From Butyrivibrio fibrisolvens 16/4 (GTDB lineage Bacteria; Bacillota; Clostridia; Lachnospirales; Lachnospiraceae): a stretch of 64,000 bases of DNA. The translations under genes were made by a program, and so were the position numbers. Position 1 is the stretch's first letter. Every line of letters starts with the position of its first letter. The stretch lies in contig FP929036.1 in the NCBI GenBank assembly GCA_000209815.1, forward strand, positions 2,454,035 through 2,518,034. Direction: 5' to 3'. Positions 3,664 through 29,363 of the stretch are shown piece by piece. The notes beneath the pieces were generated by a model. It did not search any database and was not told where the DNA came from. It saw only the letters and a list, made by a program, of their open reading frames with translations.

Positions 3664-4420
3664 CTATTTATATTTATTACATATAAATAGACAACAAAAT
3701 GCAATAAATGCACTCATAAGTGTTCCAACCAGATATTTCTCCGCAAACTCCTGTAACTCCAGCTGCTTATAACGAGCCAAACTTTTAGCAGTTAATACAA
3801 ATCCTATAGCTCCATACTGGCCTAATAATCCTAGGACTAAAATTATTTCTCTTTCAAGCACACCTATCCAATACCCAACCCTAACATTTTCCTGATGCTC
3901 TTGACCATCATTTGTTTCCTCTTTTTTCCCTGCTACCTTTTCACTTTCTTCATCCTTTTTCTTTAGAAATAATGATTCAAAAATTACTGAAATAAATATA
4001 GCGGCAGGCTTCCAACAAACAAGAATCGCTGCCATTGCGATTAATTCTTTCTTCTCTAAGTAATTATAAATCAGTGAATTTGTATTATCGATATCAATAT
4101 GCAAAACGCTTAACAATATCACTAATATTGCAATATGTACTACCTGGTCTAGAAGAAATATAATCCCCACATAATGACCACGCTTATCAAAATCATTTTT
4201 CATTTTATCAATGACAAAATGTGTCAAGAACAGCAAGAGTGAAAATAAAAATACTTTTTAATACTGCTATCCCCAACAATCACTGCCCCCGTTATTACAG
4301 GTATACAATATAACAAACAATGTAATGCCAGGAACTTCAAGGATTCTTTTTCTTGATTGCTATTAAATTAGTCTGTAAATAAAAATCTCCAATAATATGT
4401 CCTAATATTATTAATTCCAT
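3664..4420 (-). CDS. DUF3307 integral membrane protein (two frameshifts)
   Basis: Reading from an ATG at 4420 gives MELIILGHIIGDFYLQTN, the hallmark DUF3307 start. Two repairs, at the T runs 4347-4351 and 4255-4259, join this to the long frame ending at 3664, for about 250 residues. There are several hydrophobic helices, a charged cytoplasmic loop rich in Lys and Glu (around LKKKDEESEKVAGKKEE), and more helices at the C-terminus. The start lies 2 bases after the SatD stop, so the two genes are co-translated. DUF3307 is commonly paired with SatD; its biochemical role is not established. I infer a membrane partner or effector. Confidence 0.75.
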
Positions 4421-4422
4421 TT

Positions 4423-5289
4423 TTATATGTACCTTTCTCTTATATAATTTATAGCAACATAATCAAGTTCTCTAATTTTTAGAACATTTCCTCTCTTCAT
4501 TACTACAGCTGCATTCTGTCTCGAGCTTTGCAATATTTCAGCTATTATAGTCGATTGAGTATTCTTTGAAATTATGTATTCACTTTCCATCATATCATAT
4601 CCTACAAATATCGGTTTTATATACTTTGTCATATCCAACTCTAGACTACCAATTTCAAATTTTGATTTAACAGTTCTAACATCTGCAGTAGAAGTATTTT
4701 GCCGACTTTTTAGTGCTTCCGCTTTTATTGTAATCAAGTCATCTACACCTGAAATAAAATCAGAAGATACTCTATCATACATCGTAAATGGAAATATTAA
4801 TTCATTTAATAATTGCACATAATTTTGCATCGGCATTTGCTGCCGCTTTAGCTGTAATGACGCATTTATCAAATGATTAGCTAAAAAGTCATCTTCTCCA
4901 GAATATATATTTATATTACTTAACTGAGAATTATATACACCTTCTATTGCCTGTCTAGCGTTATGATATGCTGGACCATCCTGTTGAGTAGATAATCCAT
5001 TTTCTATTTTGATTGTCCACTCGCCAACGCCTATACCTGCTCTTAATTTCACAGGATATATTAATATTTCCAACAATCTATAATACATATATGCAGAAGC
5101 AACATCTACAAATAGCCCCTGAAGTGAATCTCCTGCGCTAAAAGTCACCTTAAATTCCTGGGATTCGCAGAACATTCCATTTAATATTTCCACATAATCC
5201 ATTAGAATTTTTTGTATACTCGTTCTATCAATTACTCCATATTTCCTTGACTTTTCAATATCTATTATTAGAGATGCATACTTTATCAT
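4423..5289 (-). CDS. satD: SatD-family protein: nucleotide-cyclase-like domain plus C-terminal HTH
   Basis: The 288-residue product carries two motifs in the order seen in class III nucleotidyl cyclases: SAGDSLQG (residues 51-58) and LRAGIGVGEW (82-91). The C-terminus (about 238-285) has a helix-turn-helix with STIIAEILQSSRQNAAVVMKR. SatD is a named family from the Streptococcus acid-tolerance locus, but its activity is unproven. The gene is first in an operon with the DUF3307 membrane protein and is preceded by a clear promoter overlapped by palindromic repeats, which suggests self-regulation through the HTH. Cyclase activity here is inference from fold-level motifs only; the metal-binding Asp set is incomplete by eye. 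Confidence 0.75.
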   Translation of the reverse strand: MIKYASLIIDIEKSRKYGVIDRTSIQKILMDYVEILNGMFCESQEFKVTFSAGDSLQGLFVDVASAYMYYRLLEILIYPVKLRAGIGVGEWTIKIENGLSTQQDGPAYHNARQAIEGVYNSQLSNINIYSGEDDFLANHLINASLQLKRQQMPMQNYVQLLNELIFPFTMYDRVSSDFISGVDDLITIKAEALKSRQNTSTADVRTVKSKFEIGSLELDMTKYIKPIFVGYDMMESEYIISKNTQSTIIAEILQSSRQNAAVVMKRGNVLKIRELDYVAINYIRERYI

Positions 5290-5314
5290 TCCCTACCACT
5301 CTCCTTATGCATTT

Positions 5315-5387
5315 ATCATATTACAACTGCGGCTTTAGTGCAATCATATTCGGTTGCGTTTATAAATTGCAATCAAATATGGTTGCG
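5315..5387 (-). promoter_or_regulatory. satD promoter with paired palindromic operators
   Basis: Minus strand: TTGCAC (5338-5343), 17-base spacer, TATGAT (5315-5320). Two 19-bp imperfect palindromes of the form GCAATCA-N4-GGTTGCG occur at 5340-5358 and 5369-5387, 29 bp apart, and the first overlaps the -35 element. A weaker third copy starts near 5398. This arrangement is typical of a repressor that blocks the -35 box; the SatD HTH is the obvious candidate ligand. Confidence 0.7.
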
Positions 5388-5402
5388 TGTCTTTAGTGCA
5401 AA

Positions 5403-5431
5403 CAAAAACAGTTGTCAAAGTGACAACTGTT
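5403..5431 (-). terminator. Terminator of the OLD-led operon
   Basis: An 11-bp perfect inverted repeat (AACAGTTGTCA / TGACAACTGTT, 5407-5417 and 5421-5431) with a 3-base loop is followed on the minus strand by a short T run. It separates the 5455-9181 operon from the satD promoter. Confidence 0.75.
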
Positions 5432-5454: not shown

Positions 5455-6876
5455 TCACATCATCTCCCTTAAAATATTACTTGCCACGTTATTTCCTGTC
5501 CTACCATCACTAGGAGTTTTTGCGATAGTAGTCATATACCTAGAGTCATCATGATAGGTAAGCTTTATGTGTTTTCCCTCTTCTTTAAGATTAAAACCCA
5601 TCCCTTCTAACTCACTCTTCATGTTACTACTTACAGATTTATAACCTTTAAAAATTTCTTTAACTTTACGACGACGTTTTTCAAGCTCCCCTACTCGTTC
5701 ATTTGTACTAAGAATATCCTTAATTATGTGGGCTTTTCGAGTTTTAGGATCTATCTTTTCTTGAACTTCTTCTAGAGAATCTAATACCATCTCACTAATC
5801 TCACCATCAAAAAAATCTATTTCATTTCCTTGAAATAATATTGCTTTATCTTTTTTGTTGTCACTTTAGCTGAAAGCCTAGCATTCTCCTCCTCAAGTAC
5901 AAGATTTCTATTAGTCAGTTCTTTTATCCTATCTTGTAATTCATCTATTTCTTGTCCAAACACGCTATAAACAGATTTAACCTCATTCTGAGCTGCTTGC
6001 TTATCATTTATGGCATTATTGCACTTTTCATTTGTTCTATCCAAAATATCATTTAAAATGCTACTCCTAACACCTTGCCAAGTAAGAATTAAATCAAGGT
6101 TCTGCAAATTACTATATTGCATTACATAATCGACTATCTTTTCCATCAATTTTTCAGGACGATTTCCTTCTATATATCTACACCTTTTATGTCCCATCTT
6201 TTGACTTGGATAATACACTCCAATTGTTCCATTAATCTCATTTTGATTATTGCATTTTTTACTCAGTAAGTGGTTTATTGAAGCATCTTCTTGCACAAAA
6301 ACATGTGCAATCCCTTTTAAAAGATACGATAGTCTATTCACATCGATGGGTATTCTATTTTGCTTCGTTCGTGATACGTAAATCACTGGCAAATCATACT
6401 TAGTTCTACCACACACCATATCTACAAGAAGATTACTATTCTTCTTTTCTATCTTATGTGGATTGAATGAGACGCTTAAATCGTTATCATTTGCCACGTA
6501 GCCATTTGAAATTAATAAAAAATAAATTGTGGCGTACTAAAATCCCCATTAGTTATCACTGCATCTTCTTTATAACTGCGATCTAAACGAATAGCCATCT
6601 TCATTTTCTTATAATCAAAAATATAATCTGTATCCCAAATGACTCCTTCCAATTCTGTTTTTCATACCTAACGGCTACTATACCGCACTTTTCATAATCA
6701 ACTATTTCTAACCATAATGAATCATTTCCATATCTTTCCTGTTGATTTCCATGCCAAGATAAATCTTTAATTACGTTTTCAGGGTGTGGACTATTCCGAT
6801 TCCATTCAATGACCAAATCAATAAAACTCTCTTTTGTTAAATTTCTAATATTTAAAACAGTTGAATATAATACCAT
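5455..6876 (-). CDS. Uncharacterised coiled-coil protein, third gene of the OLD-led operon (three frameshifts)
   Basis: Three frames join when one base is added at each of three A/T runs (6659-6663, 6517-6522, 5851-5856), giving about 475 residues. The N-terminal region has LSWHGNQQERYGNDS, where bases just before the first break are well ordered. The middle holds LPVIYVSRTKQNRIPID and IAHVFVQED. Residues about 300-350 are a coiled coil (QDRIKELTNRNLVLEEENAR). The C-terminus has HDDSRYMTTIAKTPSDGRTG, which resembles small RNA/DNA-binding folds. The start is an ATG at 6876 sharing bases with the upstream stop (TAATG), with GAGGGGGAG before it; a GTG at 6882 is the alternative. I cannot name the family; co-expression with an OLD nuclease suggests defence. 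Confidence 0.6.
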
Positions 6877-7485: not shown

Positions 7486-9181
7486 TTACATACAAACTCT
7501 GTCCATAAATTCTCTTATTTTTTATACACATCGTCCTCTAAATCCGGATAAGTCTCAAGTACGGTATTAGTCCAATCTGGACCGTGACCTCCGACCTGTT
7601 TAACGAAACTCTCTAGTTCTCCTTCTTGTACCATAAAAATCCCTACTTCTTCAAGCTTCTTATTTAGCTTATGATACGAAGATGATGCGTCTCCTGCAGG
7701 CAATGCTTGTATCCCACCTTTCTTTATAGCATCCCATTTTGATACTAATGATATAGCAGCCCTAATTTGCTTGATTTCTTTTTTGTTAGGTTTTTTTCGC
7801 TTGATGAATTACATATTTTTTCAATCAAGATTTTTAATTCATATTTATCAACATATTCTTTGGGACTATGTAGATTCGAAACAATTTTTTTGTAATCAAT
7901 TTTTATACTTTCCCAATCGATACTGTATGCCTCTGTAATCTCCCTAAAAACATTCTCTTCATTTAATACATCTATATCCACAATCAGACGAATATCAACA
8001 TCCAATGAATGCAAAGCATTTACGATTTTTGCCATTCTATGCTTCCCTCCACAATGAATAAAAAGGGTTTCTGAATATAGACCTCGGCAAAGCTTGTTAT
8101 AATTTTCTATTATAGAATACATCTTACAATCTGAGTCGCTCTCGCAAAGAACTACATTCTTATGAAACAAGCTAGCCATTATATTCGAATATTTTAGTAG
8201 AGGATCATTCCACACACTATTAAATGTTTCATTTTCCAAAATAGAAAACTTGTTAGCATTTCCATTTCTAGTTATTCTAATAATTTTCACTCTATCTGGA
8301 CATACTTGAGTCAATCCTTTAACTATCTCTTCGCTATGCGTAGAAATAAAAGCTTGCTGATATTCAGTCAATGTCGTCCCTATAATTTGGCCCATAATAT
8401 TAGCCTGTGGTGGATGCAAAAATGATTCTGGTTCATCTATCAAGAATGTACAATAATAATCTATCATAAGATAAAGTAATATACCTGTAAAACTTTTTAT
8501 ACCGTCGCCTTGTTCCTGAACTTGCATATATGTGTCTAATATTTCAGCATAGGCATTTTGACGTTCCTCTTCATCTTTGAAATCATTATTCAGCTTTACT
8601 GAATCGCCAATACATAATGGAATATTCGCTCCATTTAAAATATATGGAATTAATTCTTTTCCAAATGCACTTTTAAAACTTTGACTTAACCATTCCCTAT
8701 ACTCTCTATTAAATGCAACATAATGTATGGGATTAGTCTTTGTAGCTTTTCTGGTTATACAATTCGCAGGATTACTAATCGAAAGTCTATTAATAGTATC
8801 AAGATACGTTACAAAGAGAGCTCTAGCCGGTCCATAATACATATTATGAGCATAATTAGAAACACTATATCTAGCTAGTGAATATCCTATTCCAGAATAA
8901 TTTCTATTACCCCCCATTATCTACTATAGTTGATGTTTGTTCAAGAAAATCAATAATACTTCCATCATACTTCTCTATTTCTATGTCCTTTATAACAGTA
9001 GTTTTTTTATTTGTTTCACATAAAGCATAAATATCCTTCAACGATTGACTTTTTCCAGCATTATTAGGCCCCACGAAAATAACTATATCATTTTTCTAAT
9101 TTTAATTTCTGTTCCATCATTAAGTTTTATTTTAGAAATATAACCACCATATTTTTTATCACTTACATTACGGTCATCCAT
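7486..9181 (-). CDS. OLD-family ATPase with TOPRIM nuclease domain (four frameshifts)
   Basis: One product of about 565 residues appears when runs at 9091-9095, 8910-8915, 7779-7784 and 7518-7523 each gain a base. In order: N-terminal MDDRNVSDKKYGGYISKIKL, Walker A VGPNNAGKSQS, ABC signature QEQGDGIKSF, Walker B TFLIDEPESFLHPPQ, switch His in STHSEE, then the TOPRIM acidic residues in VVLCESDSD, CGGKHRM and VDIDVLNEEN, and the C-terminal GGHGPDWTN. This is the overcoming-lysogenization-defect (OLD) architecture, as in GajA of Gabija. No UvrD/GajB helicase follows; two unknown genes do, so it is not a canonical Gabija locus. Confidence 0.85.
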
Positions 9182-9264: not shown

Positions 9265-9693
9265 TCATACAGCTTCCTTGTAGTACTCCAAAACATTAAT
9301 AAATGGAATAACAATCTTTCCGCTATTTAACACATTTCCCGATATAGCCTCAATCTTTCCCCTAGCTATTCCCACAAGCGCAGCCGCGCCATTTACCATA
9401 ACTAGCTGCTTAAATTGTTCTTCATCTACATCTCCTGATGGTACAAACGCACCCTCAAGTGCTATTTCCATATGACATTTTTGTTCTTCTGAGTTGATTA
9501 AATCAATTTTAAACTCTATCTCAATTTGCCCCATCAACCCATCTTCATCTTTTTCAAATCTAGGTTTATTGATACAAAAATCAATTTTCTTTTCTTTTGC
9601 ATCAGCAAAATTTACCAGTGAATTCTCTATAACAAGCTTATTAATGTTATTCCCTAACAGTTCAATTCCTGCAGTAATTTCATTTAAATTCAT
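9265..9693 (-). CDS. SecB-like chaperone of a toxin-antitoxin-chaperone system
   Basis: The 142-residue product has the alternating beta-strand pattern of SecB-fold proteins (QIEIEFKIDLINSEE, MEIALEGAFVPSG, VNGAAALVGIARGKIEAIS, VIPFINVLEYYKE). Firmicutes generally lack housekeeping SecB, so a SecB-like gene beside a HigA-type antitoxin is best explained as the dedicated chaperone of a TAC module, as in the M. tuberculosis HigBA-SecB-like locus. Its ATG overlaps the antitoxin stop (TAATG), making chaperone and antitoxin co-translated. A terminator follows at once, so it ends the operon. Confidence 0.8.
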   Translation of the reverse strand: MNLNEITAGIELLGNNINKLVIENSLVNFADAKEKKIDFCINKPRFEKDEDGLMGQIEIEFKIDLINSEEQKCHMEIALEGAFVPSGDVDEEQFKQLVMVNGAAALVGIARGKIEAISGNVLNSGKIVIPFINVLEYYKEAV

Positions 9694-10087
9694 TATGCAA
9701 TCCCCTCTGTAAGTTCCATATCCTTAGGTAATCTGAATCTCATAATATTAGTTAGGCTCTCGGTTTCCCATTTATCAACAGTATATTCTGCCTTCGTGTT
9801 TTCTGAATATATGTCAACATTACACTCTAAACCCAATTTCGCACAAATTTCATTCAACGACTTAATAGTAAAATTATACTCGCGGCTCTCCCATTTAGAA
9901 ACCATTCCCTGGGTAACCCCCATAAAATCTGCAAATTCCTTTTGTGTCATTCCTCTGTCTAATCGAGCCAACTCTATCTTCGCTGATATTCTAGCCAATT
10001 CAACAATTGTTTTACTTCCTGCTCTTCAAATCCATCTGTAACCCATGTAGTCTTCTTAGCATTAGCAATCTTATCTTTTAAACTCAT
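9693..10087 (-). CDS. higA: HigA-type antitoxin with XRE HTH (frameshifted)
   Basis: The continuous frame begins at 9998, but an ATG at 10087 with GGAGG upstream starts MSLKDKIANAKKTTWVTDGF, which joins the main frame if one base is added near 10015-10020. The product is about 131 residues. The HTH lies in the middle (MTQKEFADFMGVTQGMVSKW). The C-terminal tail after the HTH (about 45 residues, with VDKWETESLTNIMRF) is the expected place of a chaperone-addiction segment. It lies between toxin and SecB-like genes and probably binds the palindrome in the operon promoter. Confidence 0.8.
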
Positions 10088-10112
10088 AGCTTCCTCCATT
10101 TAACCCCTGTCA

Positions 10113-10496
10113 TTATTCCTCTAGCTCATCCAATCTCTTAATTGAAAGATTAATTCCTCTTCTATAGTCAGAATCATTTTTCTCAAGAAATGCATGTAGT
10201 AAAATAATATCCCCATCTACTATAGTATAAAGAACCCTAACATTCTTCTTTGTTTTAGGATGTCTAATAGAATACAAATACTTCTCACCCGTTAGTTTCT
10301 CATACTGCGGAAGTCTAATAGCTCCTTCCAATTCAACACTTAATACTGACAAATCCTCTATCAATTTCTTCTGATATCTCTTCCAAGGTGGTTTATTTTT
10401 CCAAGCTTCATTGACAGCATTAGAAAATTCTTTTTCTAACATAGGAACAGCATAAATATTGTCTGAACCATATATATCTATATTATGTAGTTCCAC
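10113..10496 (-). CDS. higB: HigB/RelE-like toxin
   Basis: The product (about 127 residues) shows the phage Gp49/HigB-like RelE fold pattern: PPWKRYQKKLIEDLSVL, LEGAIRLPQYEKL, LYSIRHPKTKKNVRVLYTIV, and the terminal strand IILLHAFLEKNDSD. These toxins cleave ribosome-bound mRNA. The frame is open to a GTG at 10505, but that GTG lies almost on top of the GAGGAGG ribosome site; the GTG at 10496 has a normal spacing of about 8-10 bases, so I prefer it. First gene of the TAC operon; the antitoxin follows by 25 bases. Confidence 0.85.
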   Translation of the reverse strand: MELHNIDIYGSDNIYAVPMLEKEFSNAVNEAWKNKPPWKRYQKKLIEDLSVLSVELEGAIRLPQYEKLTGEKYLYSIRHPKTKKNVRVLYTIVDGDIILLHAFLEKNDSDYRRGINLSIKRLDELEE

Positions 10497-10529
10497 CCAT
10501 TGCACTCCTCCTCGATATATGTATATACA

Positions 10530-10628: not shown

Positions 10629-13562
10629 TTACATCAACTCCAGCACCTCTGCCGCTATCTCAGCATCACACACTCTCATGATATTATCCTCAGCATCTTC
10701 CTTTGATAGCAGATTAATGCTTCCATACCACACAACCTGATTATCAATCGCAGCAAAACGTTCGCAATCCTCTGTCCTAAGTCTCACTTCGAATCCTGCA
10801 CGTCTCAGCCTCTCCAACAGTTCCATTCTTACATAATCCTTACCATATACATAAGCGTCTGGATGCCAGGTTACTATCGTTACATTCACCCCAAGCTCAT
10901 ACTTAGGTGCCAGCATCTCTACAAGCTTTTCAACCTTCTTCGTGTTAATACGTGGGCTTGAGATTACAACTGATTCCTTTGCCTCCATCAAGTCTCGATT
11001 GTAAACTTCTGCATAGCTTTCAATATCATAGATTGCATTTGCCTCCTGCTTCTCACCCTCTATTCCAGCACATATATCATATCCAATTTTCTTATAAGCT
11101 TTTAATCGAGACATATACATCTTATCAAACTTCGGAACATGGATATCCACATAATCATATACAATGACATTCTCTTTACTTGGATAGTCACGATTCAATC
11201 TACCCACATACTGTTCCACTACATTTTCACCCCTAATTGGCGTAGCCATAAATAATGTATCTAACCTAGGATAATCGAATCCTTCACCAAGTAAAGAGCC
11301 GGTACCTACTAATATTAAGCTCTCGTCTTCACTAACTGAATTTAGCTCGGCCACCTGGGCACGTCTTGCCTTAGTGCCATCTTTACCTGTCAGAAGAATT
11401 ACGCTATCAGCCTTATCCCTCAACAATTCAAATAATCGCTTTGCATGATCTACAAATTTCGTGAGTATAACAGGAGTTCTTCCGGCTTCCATACATATCA
11501 CTACGTCATTTACAATCTGCGCATCCCTAACATCATTATTTCTAATCAGCTCATATGTCGCATTGCCATAAGGAGTTTTGCTCAAATGATGTGTGGCAAC
11601 CGTTCGTGTAAATCTTGGATACACTAAGTGGGGAATCCCTTGCTCCTTTGCTCTGTCCTTCGCAGTAAATCTATACCTTATTGGACCGATTAAGAATTCA
11701 TTCGTCTTATCTTTTCCATCTCCTCTTTTTGGCGTTGCAGTCACACCATATAAATATTTTGCAGGTACTTCTCTCAGAACCTCTATAGCAGAATCCGAAG
11801 CACCATGATGACACTCATCCAATATAACTTGACCATACTGTTTTAGGAGTGGATGCAGTCCATCTTTCTTATTCAAAGATCTAATCATAGCTACATCAAC
11901 AATTCCTGTCATAGAGTCGTGTGCACCTTGTAGATTTCCTATTAGTTTTTTTCGCTTCTTTATGCGTCCAGATTTTGTCTTATATTCTGGTTGCTCCTCA
12001 TCAATTACTAGGAATTCGTTTAATCGTTCTATCCACTGATTCATCAGCTCTGCTTTATCTACCAGTATCAACGTGTTAACCTGATGTTTCGCAATCAAAT
12101 CACAACATACTACTGTCTTTCCAAATGCTGTGGCCGCATGAAGAATTCCATCATCATACTTCATAATTTCTTCCAGCGCTTCTTGCTGAGAGTCTTTTAA
12201 TTTACCTTTAAAAGACACATTAATTCTTCTACCATTTTCACGTTCGTCTCTAATCTCATATTTAATATCTGCAGCCTTCAGTAGTTCCTCTACCTTTTCT
12301 TGTAGCCCCCTTGGCAGTGCTATATAATTCCCGACATCCTCGCCAAGATATATAAACCTTGGCGTATCATAATTAGGCATACTCATAGCTTGATTTCTAA
12401 AATAATCTCTATTTGTATATGCAGAGAGCTGTCGTAGTTTTCGCTTTAACCCGTTAGAAAGATTATTCTTTTTAATATAAAGCTTGTCAGATAATGTGAT
12501 ATCAACAGAACCATCCACATCTACCCCGGAAATGTTGTCCGAATCTTTCCATGGAATGTAGTTCTCATTATCTTCTTCATTTATAGTTACCTTGCTCCAC
12601 TGTAACAGACAATCTTCAACCTCTGACTTAGTTAATCTTCTAACTGTACCTAATGCCTGCAACTGCTTAGGATATGCATTCCAATTCTCATCAACAAAGG
12701 CACTATTCCCTTCTAGCAATGCACGTCCCTGTAACGGGAGCGCAATTACGTTGCCTAACCCACCTGCTGGTAATGTATCTTGTGTAGGTATCATTCTGTC
12801 GTAATATCTAAATGATTTTAAATCTACAGACTGTGCGCCTTTTTCAAGCAACGCAAATCCAAATCTTCTTGCCAGTTTTGCAGGAATCTGTTCTTTGAAG
12901 AAAATCCACACATGAGCACCATTTCCCGAACGTGAACGCTCCACTATAGCAGGAACCCCCAACTCCTTACAAATAGCCATTAGCACATCAACTTCTTCCA
13001 TCCACTCCTGGTTTTCATTTGCAAAATCTCCCTGCTGCGAGCCCTGAGCATGATTGTCAAAATCAAACACCAGCAACTGACACATATTATCCTCAAGCAT
13101 GGGATAGATTGCCACTACATCATTACCATTTGGGTCTGCTCCTCTTAAATGTGCTTTTATCAAATCCGGAGTGACCGGCTTATATGCCTTAATCTCGCAA
13201 TCTTTACATCTAACTCCGTCGTGCATATTTATATGGCAATCTCTCTCCCATCTATTGAAGCATTGAGTGTAGTAGCCAGTTTTTCCAGTTTTAGGATTAC
13301 AATAACGAAGATCATAAACATCCTGTCTACCTCTGCAAAAGAGTATGAAGAAATTGTTAGCATTCTTATCATTTATCTCAATTGGCTCAATTCTATCTCC
13401 TTGGTTTGGGTCATATTTTTCTTGTTTTGACTCATCCTGGCTATCCGCATTTATCTTCACATTATAAGAAATCCCTGCCTCATACAATAATTGTCTGAGG
13501 CAGAGATTCTCTTGCTCTAGCTGTTCTATTTTCTGTTTTAGTTCTTTTATAGATTCACCCAT
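10629..13562 (-). CDS. TOTE-type archaeo-eukaryotic primase fused to SF2 helicase and PLD-like domain
   Basis: This intact 977-residue protein has four parts: an N-terminal coiled coil (1-30); a Cys/His cluster (C101-C122) leading into an AEP primase domain with VFDFDNH (165-171), ERSRSGNGAHVW (208-219) and IALPLQGRA (273-281); a superfamily 2 helicase with HAATAFGKTVV, LDECHHGAS and VTATPKRGDGKD; and a C-terminal PLD-like domain with AAIDNQVVWYGSINLLS. The phospholipase-D His of the HKD motif is not visible, so that domain may be a binding or degenerate nuclease unit. The combination matches the primase-helicase of TOTE conflict systems described by comparative genomics. It has no frameshift, unlike many neighbours. 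Confidence 0.9.
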   Translation of the reverse strand: MGESIKELKQKIEQLEQENLCLRQLLYEAGISYNVKINADSQDESKQEKYDPNQGDRIEPIEINDKNANNFFILFCRGRQDVYDLRYCNPKTGKTGYYTQCFNRWERDCHINMHDGVRCKDCEIKAYKPVTPDLIKAHLRGADPNGNDVVAIYPMLEDNMCQLLVFDFDNHAQGSQQGDFANENQEWMEEVDVLMAICKELGVPAIVERSRSGNGAHVWIFFKEQIPAKLARRFGFALLEKGAQSVDLKSFRYYDRMIPTQDTLPAGGLGNVIALPLQGRALLEGNSAFVDENWNAYPKQLQALGTVRRLTKSEVEDCLLQWSKVTINEEDNENYIPWKDSDNISGVDVDGSVDITLSDKLYIKKNNLSNGLKRKLRQLSAYTNRDYFRNQAMSMPNYDTPRFIYLGEDVGNYIALPRGLQEKVEELLKAADIKYEIRDERENGRRINVSFKGKLKDSQQEALEEIMKYDDGILHAATAFGKTVVCCDLIAKHQVNTLILVDKAELMNQWIERLNEFLVIDEEQPEYKTKSGRIKKRKKLIGNLQGAHDSMTGIVDVAMIRSLNKKDGLHPLLKQYGQVILDECHHGASDSAIEVLREVPAKYLYGVTATPKRGDGKDKTNEFLIGPIRYRFTAKDRAKEQGIPHLVYPRFTRTVATHHLSKTPYGNATYELIRNNDVRDAQIVNDVVICMEAGRTPVILTKFVDHAKRLFELLRDKADSVILLTGKDGTKARRAQVAELNSVSEDESLILVGTGSLLGEGFDYPRLDTLFMATPIRGENVVEQYVGRLNRDYPSKENVIVYDYVDIHVPKFDKMYMSRLKAYKKIGYDICAGIEGEKQEANAIYDIESYAEVYNRDLMEAKESVVISSPRINTKKVEKLVEMLAPKYELGVNVTIVTWHPDAYVYGKDYVRMELLERLRRAGFEVRLRTEDCERFAAIDNQVVWYGSINLLSKEDAEDNIMRVCDAEIAAEVLELM

Positions 13563-14856: not shown

Positions 14857-15495
14857 TCATCTCTCCACTTTCTCAAAATCCGCCTTCGGATGCTTACAAA
14901 TCGGACATACAAAATCATCGGGCAACTCCTCACCCACATACTCATATCCGCATATGCGGCACCTCCATGCTGTCTCACCCTTAGGTGTTGTTCCAACAGC
15001 CTCAGGCTTTGGCTTGATATTATTCTGATAATACTCGTATGTCACTGATGGCACTTCTGAAAGAACAGTCATAGCTGTAGGCTCACAAATAAATAGTGTA
15101 TGGGAACCCAAATCAACCGTTTCAACAACCTTCAGCGAGAAGTATGCATTTGTCCCAGCCACAATATAAGTAATTCCATTATCCGCCTGCTTATAATTCT
15201 CCTTTGAATAATCAGCAAACTTGTCTACATCTCGACCTGACTGAAATCCGAAATGCTTAAACAAATCAAATGACGCATCCTGGCTGATGACAGAAATATT
15301 GCACTCACCAGTCTCCTTTACCATATCATGAGTGAAGTTAGCCTTGTTAATCGCTACGGAAATACGGTTTGGTTCAGATGCCACCTGTATGGCTGTGTTA
15401 ATGATACAACCATTAGCTCTACCATCACGCACTGCAGTGCATACAAATAAACCATAAGATAATTTGTACATAGCTTTTGTGTTCATTTCTGACAT
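14857..15495 (-). CDS. Flavin reductase-rubredoxin fusion (high-molecular-weight rubredoxin), copy 1
   Basis: The 212-residue protein has an N-terminal FMN-binding flavin-reductase split barrel (MYKLSYGLFVCTAVRDGRAN to about residue 150) and a C-terminal rubredoxin (WRCRICGYE, VCPICKHPKADF; four iron-binding Cys). Such proteins pass electrons from NAD(P)H reductases to flavodiiron proteins for oxygen or NO reduction in anaerobes. It is about 90% identical to the copy at 17246. Unlike that copy, the sequence before its ATG (GTGGGATTATT) lacks a good ribosome site, so it may be weakly expressed. Confidence 0.93.
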   Translation of the reverse strand: MSEMNTKAMYKLSYGLFVCTAVRDGRANGCIINTAIQVASEPNRISVAINKANFTHDMVKETGECNISVISQDASFDLFKHFGFQSGRDVDKFADYSKENYKQADNGITYIVAGTNAYFSLKVVETVDLGSHTLFICEPTAMTVLSEVPSVTYEYYQNNIKPKPEAVGTTPKGETAWRCRICGYEYVGEELPDDFVCPICKHPKADFEKVER

Positions 15496-17245: not shown

Positions 17246-17884
17246 TTACCTCACCATCTTTTCAAAATCCGCCTTCGGATGCTTACAAATCGGACAGATA
17301 AAATCATCCGGCAGCTCCTCTCCTACCCACTCATATCCGCATATGCGACATCTCCATACAGTCTCCCCCTTAGGCGTTGTCCCAACAGCCTCTGGCTTTG
17401 GCTTGATATTATTCTGGTAATACTCATATGTCACCGATGGCACATCAGAAAGCACTGTCATAAATGTAGGCTCACAGATAAATAAAGTATGCGAATCCAA
17501 ATCAACTGTCTCCACGACCTTCAGTGTGAAGTACGCATTTGTCCCAGCCACAATATAAGGAATCCCATTGTCCGCCTGCTGATAATTCCCCTTTGGATAA
17601 TCAGCAAACTTGTCCACATCACGTCCCGACTGGAATCCAAAATGCTTAAACAACTCAAAGGAGGCATCCTGGCTGATGACAGAAATATTACAAGCCCCTG
17701 TCTCCTTCACCATATCATGTGTGAAGTTCGCCTTGTTAATCGCTACAGAAATACGATTTGGCTCCGATGCCACCTGAATAGCAGTGTTGATGATGCAGCC
17801 ATTAGCTCTGCCATCACGCACCGCTGTACATACAAACAAACCATAAGATAACTTGTACATCGCTTTAGTATTCATTTCTGCCAT
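17246..17884 (-). CDS. Flavin reductase-rubredoxin fusion, copy 2
   Basis: Same architecture and length (212 residues) as the gene at 14857, with about 19 substitutions. Both domains and all four rubredoxin Cys (CRICGYE, CPICKHP) are intact. It is preceded by AAGGAGGGG with good spacing, so this is probably the expressed copy. The two copies are in direct orientation and about 1.75 kb apart, bracketing two unknown genes; homologous recombination between them would delete that segment. Confidence 0.93.
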   Translation of the reverse strand: MAEMNTKAMYKLSYGLFVCTAVRDGRANGCIINTAIQVASEPNRISVAINKANFTHDMVKETGACNISVISQDASFELFKHFGFQSGRDVDKFADYPKGNYQQADNGIPYIVAGTNAYFTLKVVETVDLDSHTLFICEPTFMTVLSDVPSVTYEYYQNNIKPKPEAVGTTPKGETVWRCRICGYEWVGEELPDDFICPICKHPKADFEKMVR

Positions 17885-17906: not shown

Positions 17907-19192
17907 CTACCCACGAATAACATCCACCAACTCCGCCCCTCTGATATATGGAATTGCACCATAGCGTCCCAGCAAATATCCCTTTTCAATGTTCTCTGTT
18001 TTTCTAACAGGAAACTCATCCAATGAATATAAATCTGAAGTTCCCGTTCTATTATTCTTTTCTGTAAAATAGACTTGATCTCTTCTAAATGTAGATAAAG
18101 ATAATAAAGATGTATCGTGTGTTGTAAAAATAAGCTGTGCACCAGCTTTATTTATTTCCTTGTTTCTGAATAAATTAATAATATGCTTAACTATAAATGT
18201 ATGTAGGCTATTGTCAATCTCATCAATTACTACCGTAGTCCCGTTCTCAAATGCATCCTTCAAAAATGGTCCTAAGGTAAACAATTGATTGGTACCTAAT
18301 GATTCTTCTCCCATCCCAAGGCTATAAACAGTGTCATTTTTACCATCGCTTACCTTATGCTCGGTGATTACTTCTATTTGCTCCATCTCCTGAGTAGCTA
18401 CATTTGGAATTTGCTGACCATCAACTATAAGCTGAGGCTGTAATATATTACCTGGCATATTAATCTTCGACTTCTTTACATTAAAATGTATTTTCGAAAT
18501 ATTAATATCCGCAGCCTGAAGTAAATCTTCTGTAAATTGTAAGTACTCATTCTGCTTTGCACTTTTATATGCATTGATAGAAAGTGCAGATAGTACTTGG
18601 GCATCTGTAAAAGTAAGCACCTTTTCAGAGAGCCATTTATAAGGAATAATTGTACACTCTGTATTCCAGTTAGTCGCAGTTGCCAAAAATAGTTTATTAG
18701 GGGTATTAAACCTAACAAGAGGTTCAAGAACGGTTTTTTGAGACTTGAAATCGTACTTTTCACCCTTTCTATCAAAAATCAATGTAGGTTTCTTGCTTTT
18801 ATACTGATATAAGTACTCTTCGTGAACTTTCATTCTATCAGCCGAAAAACCATATATATATTTATTTCCGTCATCTGCAACAAAAATAAATTCAAATTCT
18901 GATGGTTCTTTAATACTTTCCTTATCAAATTTAAAAGGAATCATCGAACTAATAGGCTGATTTACCTGCATTATATTAGAATTTTTAATCAATAGCACTG
19001 CAACAGTCATAGCTCTAAAAAGACTTGTTTTGCCTGAAGCATTTGCACCATATATAGCAATTGTATTAGCCGCTTTATAATCATTCTTCTCATTTATATT
19101 TTCTTGATGTTCACGATCTGAGGACGGATTTAAGGCTAATACAGCTTCATCTTTAAAAGATAAAAATTTTTAACCGAAAATTGAATAAGCAT
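17907..19192 (-). CDS. AAA_15/AAA_21 ATPase, abortive-infection-like (frameshifted)
   Basis: Adding one base to the T run at 19167-19171 extends the frame from 19010 to an ATG at 19192, giving about 428 residues. The N-terminus MLIQFSVKNFLSFKDEAVL and Walker A YGANASGKTSLF are typical of this family. Later come the signature LGMGEESLGTN, Walker B TTVVIDEIDNSLH and the switch His in FTTHDTSLL. Relatives act in abortive phage defence, often with an RloB-type partner, but no partner gene is adjacent here. The start codon and ribosome site lie inside a long inverted repeat (19185-19231). Confidence 0.8.
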
Positions 19193-28383: not shown

Positions 28384-29363
28384 TTACGTCTTTTCTATAA
28401 AATCAACAACCTCAGCAAAAGATTTATGCTTCTTTGATAATTCATCAAAATCAGCCTCTTTAACCAATTGCTCACTTTTTGTAGTATTTCAAGCTTACTG
28501 AATCCATCAAGTTTTGGTGCGAACCAATCTTCAATACGGTTGTTAATTATTGCTATTTTATAATTAGCTGCCCCTATTTGTTCTGAAAACATTTGTCTAG
28601 TAAGTTTTTCATCTCCATCCGAATCAACTACTATCAATACTGATGATTCATCTTTCATTTTCTTATATATATTAGGTATATATCCCTTCCCATCTGCAGG
28701 TATTATAGAAATTTCTCTTCCAAGTTTTTTTGCAATCGCTTGCAGAATAATAGCATCTGTACGCCCTTCACATATAACAATTTTATCATGTGATTGCTTA
28801 CTACTATTTACTTCTATTTCAACTCGTTCCATCAGTTCTTTTACAAGATAAATAACTTTTGGAGCCTGTAATATTCTTTTTAAAATAGCGCAGAATTCAT
28901 CCTCATCATTAATAATAATCGTATTTTTTTCTTCAGATTCATAAAATAAATCAATCTTATCACCAATATTACAAATAATATCTTCATCAACAACGATTAT
29001 TACTGGGTAAACTGGAGTCATCTTTAATTCAAATAATCTGTATCTATAATTATTTGTACAAATTTCAAACCCCATTCTACGCTCTTGATAAGCCGAACTA
29101 ATATCAATTAATTTACTAGTAGTAATATCTCCAACTTTTTCCTCTACCATAGACATGTATTTGGCATTACGAAATACTTCAGACATAGACTTTGCAATAT
29201 TAATCAATGAGCCATCAGTTGTAATTTCTCCAAACACAGCAAAAACTTTTCCATTCGTGCTATTTTTAAGATACTCAACTTGTTCATTCATTATCGTGTA
29301 TATGTTTTCTGTATACTTTAAAGCTTTCTTTTCGGAATCTATTATCCAAAAATTATCGTTCAT
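28384..29363 (-). CDS. TOPRIM-domain protein (frameshifted near the C-terminus)
   Basis: The product (about 326 residues after adding one base at 28476-28480) has a central-to-C-terminal TOPRIM domain: the Glu in IVICEGRTDAIIL, GKGYIPNI, and the acidic pair in VLIVVDSDGDE. The first 190 residues are unique, with strands such as FAVFGEITTDGSLINIAKSM. No P-loop is present, unlike OLD proteins. The start overlaps the upstream EEP-nuclease gene by 11 bases, so the two are co-translated and probably work together, perhaps as a nucleic-acid-cleaving defence pair (inference). Confidence 0.7.

Follow-up and report, generated by a model that had tools for sequence, protein, structure and literature searches.

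The stretch analysed here (the window) comprises 64,000 nucleotides of the 3.16 Mb single-contig genome of Butyrivibrio fibrisolvens 16/4 (contig FP929036.1, positions 2,454,035 to 2,518,034) and carries a satD gene directly followed by a gene for a DUF3307 membrane protein. SatD and DUF3307 are families without an assigned biochemical function. The open reading frame (ORF) of satD (4423-5289, minus strand) encodes 288 amino acids and matches the Pfam family SatD at 1e-14; with 55.1 bits against PF16264 (cut-off 29) it lies above the curated threshold, and it is the sole SatD match in the whole genome. The protein consists of a palm domain of cyclase fold (about residues 1-146), a helical linker and a C-terminal helix-turn-helix (HTH)-like bundle (about residues 233-286). 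The motifs FSAGDSLQG and LRAGIGVGEW, which the initial annotation had compared with class III nucleotidyl cyclases, are present. The C-terminal HTH described there has a counterpart of the right size, four short helices, in our structural model, but the window protein gave no match to an HTH family.

The DUF3307 gene (3664-4420, minus strand) begins with an ATG at 4418-4420, two bases past the satD stop codon at 4423-4425, just as first annotated. It does not encode an intact protein, because the gene is broken in two places that had been overlooked: the frame starting at the ATG ends after 27 codons at a stop at 4337-4339, a middle stretch continues in a second frame with a stop near 4226, and the only long open frame is the last piece (3664-4236), which matches positions 66-120 of the 127 of PF11750. 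This surviving piece reaches 33 bits against a cut-off of 23; the gene is nevertheless broken. With 87 ORFs, a median ORF length of 178 amino acids and a coding coverage of 0.87, the window resembles one stretch of the sister genome G003 (21 ORFs, median 217, coverage 0.87). Gross sequencing error is therefore not evident, though two local indels may be present. We modelled an intact relative from Clostridium luticellarii (predicted local distance difference test score (pLDDT) 92.6, predicted template modelling score (pTM) 0.88). The model is all-helical with 13 helices and no strand, the protein has seven hydrophobic stretches, comparison with solved structures gave no convincing match in the Protein Data Bank, and Pfam identified the DUF3307 domain only. 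Beyond this domain, SatD-linked DUF3307 proteins have a strongly conserved second half (GxxIGxLER, AKSIARF, FAEKYLxGTL).

The promoter region of satD contains an array of palindromic operators. Two of them had been recognized initially; they are 18 bp and not 19 bp long, and a third site as well as the conservation of the array had been missed. The satD-proximal copy 1 (5340-5357, GCAATCATATTCGGTTGC), copy 2 (5369-5386, GCAATCAAATATGGTTGC) and the degenerate, weaker copy 3 (5398-5415, GCAAACAAAAACAGTTGT) follow each other at 29 bp from start to start. On the minus strand, the right half of copy 1 is also the likely -35 hexamer of a satD promoter called by eye (5315-5343, minus strand; TTGCAC at 5338-5343, 17 bp, TATGAT at 5315-5320), for which a script gave another pair of equal score. 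Copy 3 overlaps the hairpin of the upstream gene, an 11-bp perfect inverted repeat followed by T-rich DNA (5407-5431, minus strand) that is likely the terminator of the gene at 5455-5790.

This arrangement is conserved. GCAA-N10-TTGC palindromes precede satD in 24 of 35 related loci, with one to four sites each and 50 in total, and the distance between successive operators is 29 bp in all 26 cases. The pattern GCAAY-N8-RTTGC, picked after inspection of the sequences, occurs upstream of satD in 22 of the 35 loci, compared with at most two in any of 300 dinucleotide shuffles. In 20 of the 24 loci, 61 to 69 bases separate the beginning of the last operator from the start codon, and a Fusobacterium satD has a site at about -61. 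In 11 related loci a script placed a -10-like hexamer 17 bp past the TTGCA half of the last operator, which is the layout of the window. The promoters of other SatD types (n=36) contain repeated 13-mers in seven cases, with differing sequences and lags of 29 (five), 58 (one) and 28 (one). In the B. fibrisolvens genome, GCAAYC-N6-GRTTGC is found at three places, two of which are the window operators; read backwards, the pattern has no occurrence in the whole genome. That the operator is almost restricted to the satD promoter suggests autoregulation, in line with the earlier proposal that SatD controls its own operon, and the simplest reading of the sequence pattern is that SatD itself would bind the operator arrays.

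The view that SatD and DUF3307 form a conserved pair was confirmed by their adjacency almost everywhere examined. Among 391 genomes of the class sample, SatD was detected in 28 and DUF3307 above its cut-off in 29. Both families were found by Pfam in 25 of the 28 SatD genomes, and the remaining three (G154, G249, G421) have an adjoining DUF3307-like gene recognized by motif. In the phylum sample of 398 genomes, SatD was present in 69 and a match to a longer DUF3307 model in 79. DUF3307, whole or broken, directly follows satD in 36 of 39 named loci; the three exceptions are cut off within satD by the edge of a contig. The pair also exists in Fusobacterium and on plasmids of Vibrio, Pseudoalteromonas, Salinivibrio, Segatella and haloarchaea. 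The haloarchaeal plasmid pairs are annotated SatD, the Vibrio one falls below the Pfam SatD cut-off, and the Segatella and Pseudoalteromonas copies have no Pfam SatD match and keep the GD hairpin. Overall, the pair is widespread yet patchy among bacteria. Two unusual arrangements were also seen: at L112:2387-4669 SatD is fused to a long TPR-like repeat run (by eye; 760 amino acids) followed by DUF3307, and at L205:1013-2638 SatD stands without DUF3307 and precedes nucleotidyltransferase-like and HEPN-like genes (by eye).

The AlphaFold model of SatD (pLDDT 90.5, pTM 0.91) combines the palm domain with the HTH-like tail. Its structural matches include class III cyclases, GTP cyclohydrolase III (2qv6), Cas10, the cUMP synthase 7r65 and the Panoptes synthase; the match to the Panoptes mCpol 9mnr_A (TMt 0.57, E 5.8e-3) concerns a fold common to many palm families. 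The structural relationship to cyclases that the initial annotation had suggested for checking is supported by the model: it shows the fold shared by nucleotidyl cyclases and palm polymerases, and both metal-binding aspartates are conserved. These residues, D10 and D54, were assigned from the secondary structure of the model and aligned to the cyclase Asp; both are essentially invariant among 33 palms compared. D10 lies at the end of strand 1 and D54 in the hairpin of strands 2 and 3, as do the metal Asp of class III cyclases. As for the transition-state residues, expected in the helix after the GIGxG strand, the candidate Arg112 is present in 29 of 33 palms and a His or Tyr sits about where the Asn would be. 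Loci with a full SatD may also encode mini-SatD, a stand-alone palm of about 130 amino acids without HTH that is convergent to DUF3307 (L004:1441-1842, L024:1468-1872, L220:2494-2892; also L025, L027 and L029) and is perhaps a dimer partner of SatD.

The two genes do not decay equally. DUF3307 is broken and the satD frame whole in ten loci (the window, G003, G136/L040, L045, L062, G654, G614, G534, G703 and G707), or in eleven if the Agrobacterium plasmid pAt is added, in which only the second half of DUF3307 is left with no room for the first half. In G003 a transposase gene splits DUF3307. A broken satD with a whole DUF3307 was found at one locus, G722; the binomial p value is 0.012 when ten loci are set against this one and 0.006 when eleven are. 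Both genes are damaged in G477. In G692 and G817, which belong to one genus, the first 28 to 37 amino acids of SatD lie beside the last ~40 residues of DUF3307; these remnants are module deletion scars. Loss of DUF3307 with retention of satD fits the essentiality of satD in Streptococcus pyogenes, where no other accessory gene is reported to have an essentiality score in the top quarter (PMC11323703). Repeated DUF3307 loss with survival of satD is expected if SatD keeps a harmful partner off.

We therefore propose, with a probability of roughly 40%, that SatD and DUF3307 form a two-gene switch in which SatD keeps a harmful membrane protein inactive, probably by way of a nucleotide that it makes. 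SatD would bind the operators 29 bp apart, the nearest of which overlaps its own -35 box, and thereby adjust how strongly the operon is expressed, while the palm domain would bind nucleoside triphosphates (NTPs) and probably make a nucleotide signal. DUF3307, a multi-pass membrane protein presumed to be harmful when active, would be restrained by SatD or its nucleotide product, and loss of either one, for instance through phage proteins that destroy or sequester signal nucleotides, would release DUF3307 and disturb the membrane. The proposal is based on the observed pairing, fold, conserved metal Asp, operator array and one-sided decay, and on the satD essentiality taken from print; from these we infer operator binding by SatD, catalysis, toxicity, inhibition and defence. 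Since DUF3307 is broken in the window strain, the switch there is probably a relic.

Several points weigh against this switch. Many DUF3307 breaks come from draft or metagenome assemblies, and the phylum sample loci examined were only abnormal-looking ones (18 regions), so that the decay count is not blind. Assembly errors should hit both genes equally, and the one-sidedness is not expected from them. DUF3307 could also decay first merely because it is less needed. The essentiality in S. pyogenes concerns satD, whose neighbour there may be a gene other than DUF3307; if SatD is only a repressor, essentiality requires no nucleotide. The Lys by which class III cyclases select the base, located four positions ahead of the second Asp, is absent: this position is F50 in 36 of 36 SatD rows versus Lys in eight of nine rows of the comparison alignment. 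Further results speak against a part in defence. The neighbourhood survey intended to reveal enrichment of defence genes showed none, with 55 PADLOC families at 1e-12 in 150 ORFs around 12 SatD loci versus 79 in 150 of 164 ORFs from 12 distant control stretches. A search of 50,697 phage records yielded no SatD, and neither did viral contigs searched with two profiles; the SatD query matched three of 72,556 plasmid records and the DUF3307 query 13 plasmid records.

DUF3307 also occurs without SatD; 18 such loci were inspected (G085, G119, G237 and G420 from the class sample and 14 from the phylum sample), 12 of which encode the N-terminal DUF3307 half only. A class III cyclase lies nearby in 11 of the 18. 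A CHASE2 cyclase is directly upstream of DUF3307 in G085, where it was checked by Pfam, and in G119; CHASE2 cyclase and GAF-HD genes are near DUF3307 in G487, G535, G723, G524 and G569. In G237 a GAF-HD gene overlaps DUF3307 and a cyclase recognized by eye follows ~5 kb further, and in G504 a zinc-ribbon cyclase (by eye) is ~1 kb away. In G581 and G818, DUF3307 is fused to the C-terminal side of a segment that matches PycTM (4.7e-6 and 7.4e-12). The fusion genes share their operons with genes for PycC-like cyclases (1.2e-29 and 3.7e-8), E1-like proteins and JAB proteins; G581 additionally carries E2 as a gene of its own. G809 has a cyclic nucleoside monophosphate-binding protein near DUF3307. 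No cyclase-type link was seen within the fetched neighbourhoods of G420, G557, G803, G668, G778 and G816; by eye, G668 is phage-like and G778 and G816 resemble polysaccharide clusters. As an observation apart from SatD, the CHASE2-cyclase, GAF-HD and DUF3307 set recurs in several families (L114:3907-7649, L225, L226, L228, L232, L233). The Pycsar-like operons with the DUF3307-PycTM fusion, PycC-like cyclase, E1-like and JAB genes (L224:61-4135 with a separate E2, and L223:114-4034) come from two genomes of different families and look like a Pycsar variant with ancillary genes of the type known from cyclic-oligonucleotide-based anti-phage signalling systems.

Among the alternatives, a non-catalytic SatD is a serious if rather unlikely one. 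SatD would then be a nucleotide-sensing regulator whose palm reads the nucleotide pool or a second messenger and whose HTH controls the operon, with DUF3307 either having a physiological membrane job or being a toxin restrained by repression only. The HTH-like tail, the near confinement of the operator array and the lack of the adenylyl cyclase-type Lys all suit such a regulator, as does the low sequence similarity to cyclases (hhalign probability 6.5%). Second SatD copies without DUF3307 that have, by eye, lost the metal Asp positions (L215:2210-2926 and L216:2428-3186) are consistent with it too. The near invariance of both metal Asp speaks against such a regulator, as do mini-SatD copies that retain the palm without HTH and the true cyclases near DUF3307 elsewhere. 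As a separate observation, the two second copies lie near a GMP-synthase-like gene, and the SatD loci L007, L009 and L013 are beside such a gene as well.

It is less probable still that the pair acts in the manner of Pycsar, in which case SatD would be quiet until infection and its cyclic nucleotide would then open or activate DUF3307 so that the cell dies. The cyclase fold, including the match to a cUMP synthase, and the DUF3307-PycTM fusions beside PycC favour this. However, neither the essentiality of satD nor the more frequent breaking of DUF3307 is predicted by it, the all-helical DUF3307 model has no separate ligand-binding domain, and SatD lacks defence enrichment. A housekeeping or stress module without phage link, serving secretion and acid tolerance as the S. 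mutans sat name implies, is improbable: the gene families seen most often around SatD have metabolic or regulatory roles (top 25 of 151 families viewed), SatD is mostly chromosomal and sat genes are linked to acid tolerance in print (PMC11323703), but the patchy distribution in the class and phylum samples, the deletion scars and the repeated natural loss of DUF3307 speak against it.

The proposed switch would follow, by analogy, the logic of Panoptes (a constitutive synthase and an inhibited membrane effector) with different parts. In Panoptes, a palm synthase constantly makes nucleotides that restrain a membrane effector, and the cell dies once synthase or nucleotide is lost (PMC12657218, PMC12657230); SatD and DUF3307 are absent from the main texts of both. 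Panoptes (OptS mCpol and OptE) shares with our pair the two-gene operon with the palm protein first and the membrane protein second, the palm fold match and the harm expected from loss of the first gene. In contrast, SatD has an HTH-like tail, probable self-regulation and another hairpin motif (GDExQ), and OptE consists of two transmembrane helices and a beta-barrel. Membership in Panoptes is not supported, as the all-helical C. luticellarii DUF3307 model has no OptE-type beta-barrel. With Pycsar (PycC with PycTM or PycTIR) the pair has in common a class III cyclase fold, a membrane partner and the DUF3307-PycTM fusion beside PycC in two other genomes. Membership, raised as a possibility in the initial annotation, is likewise not supported: SatD had no PycC model match and no PADLOC match up to E 1, and the window DUF3307 piece had neither a PycTM nor any other PADLOC match. 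Class III nucleotidyl cyclases (PF00211) share fold and two metal Asp with SatD, which differs from them in the lack of a PF00211 match in a Pfam scan, the weak profile match, the replaced base-selecting Lys and the HTH-like tail. Unlike SatD with its one palm and its tail, GTP cyclohydrolase III carries a tandem of two palm domains, and it is not known to form a cyclic product. Type II toxin-antitoxin systems resemble the pair in the short gap or overlap of genes, a DNA-binding-type first protein with putative operators of its own and one-sided loss, but the antitoxin-like SatD has an enzyme fold and the toxin-like DUF3307, a putative toxin, is a multi-pass membrane protein.

In the open-licence literature, no link of SatD or DUF3307 to nucleotide signalling or phage defence was found among the matches listed; DUF3307 appeared in a jumbo phage context only, and the listed co-mentions of SatD and cyclase concerned chemistry or pharmacology. 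That satD is essential though accessory in S. pyogenes is an open puzzle in print (PMC11323703), and fold, partner, operator and switch logic make it experimentally tractable. Should DUF3307 serve as a membrane output of nucleotide signals, it would tie together several operons for signalling and defence. We speculate, although this is doubtful, that the pair represents an inhibitory nucleotide signalling class of its own, spread widely from Clostridia and Fusobacteria to haloarchaea, in which the nucleotide of a self-regulating palm enzyme would hold off a membrane killer of undescribed fold and nucleotide-destroying phage proteins would trigger death. If true, DUF3307 would be a general membrane output module common to CHASE2 cyclases, HD-GYP proteins and a Pycsar variant with E1/E2/JAB genes.

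Although defence genes are not enriched around SatD overall, the window has an OLD-like gene, a toxin-antitoxin-like trio and a gene for an AEP-TOTE conflict protein no more than 10 kb from satD. The TOTE conflict-system protein (10629-13562, 977 amino acids) has AEP primase (2.7e-75), helicase and PLD domains. The trio (9265-10505) consists of a Gp49-like toxin candidate below its cut-off, an HTH_3 regulator and a third ORF without Pfam match that is presumably SecB-like; the same trio adjoins the DUF3307 remnant in G003 (L111:2368-3552). OLD-like TOPRIM genes lie at 7745-8917 and 28395-29363, one with AAA_21, and another AAA_21 gene at 17907-19010. Two near-identical 212-amino-acid proteins, flavin-reductase/rubredoxin-like by eye, are encoded 1.8 kb apart (14857-15495 and 17246-17884). 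The small protein encoded upstream of satD (5455-5790) shows a HicA-like match (PADLOC, 1.1e-5) and a match to phrog_2053 (3e-14), and a relative of it also sits upstream of satD in G003.
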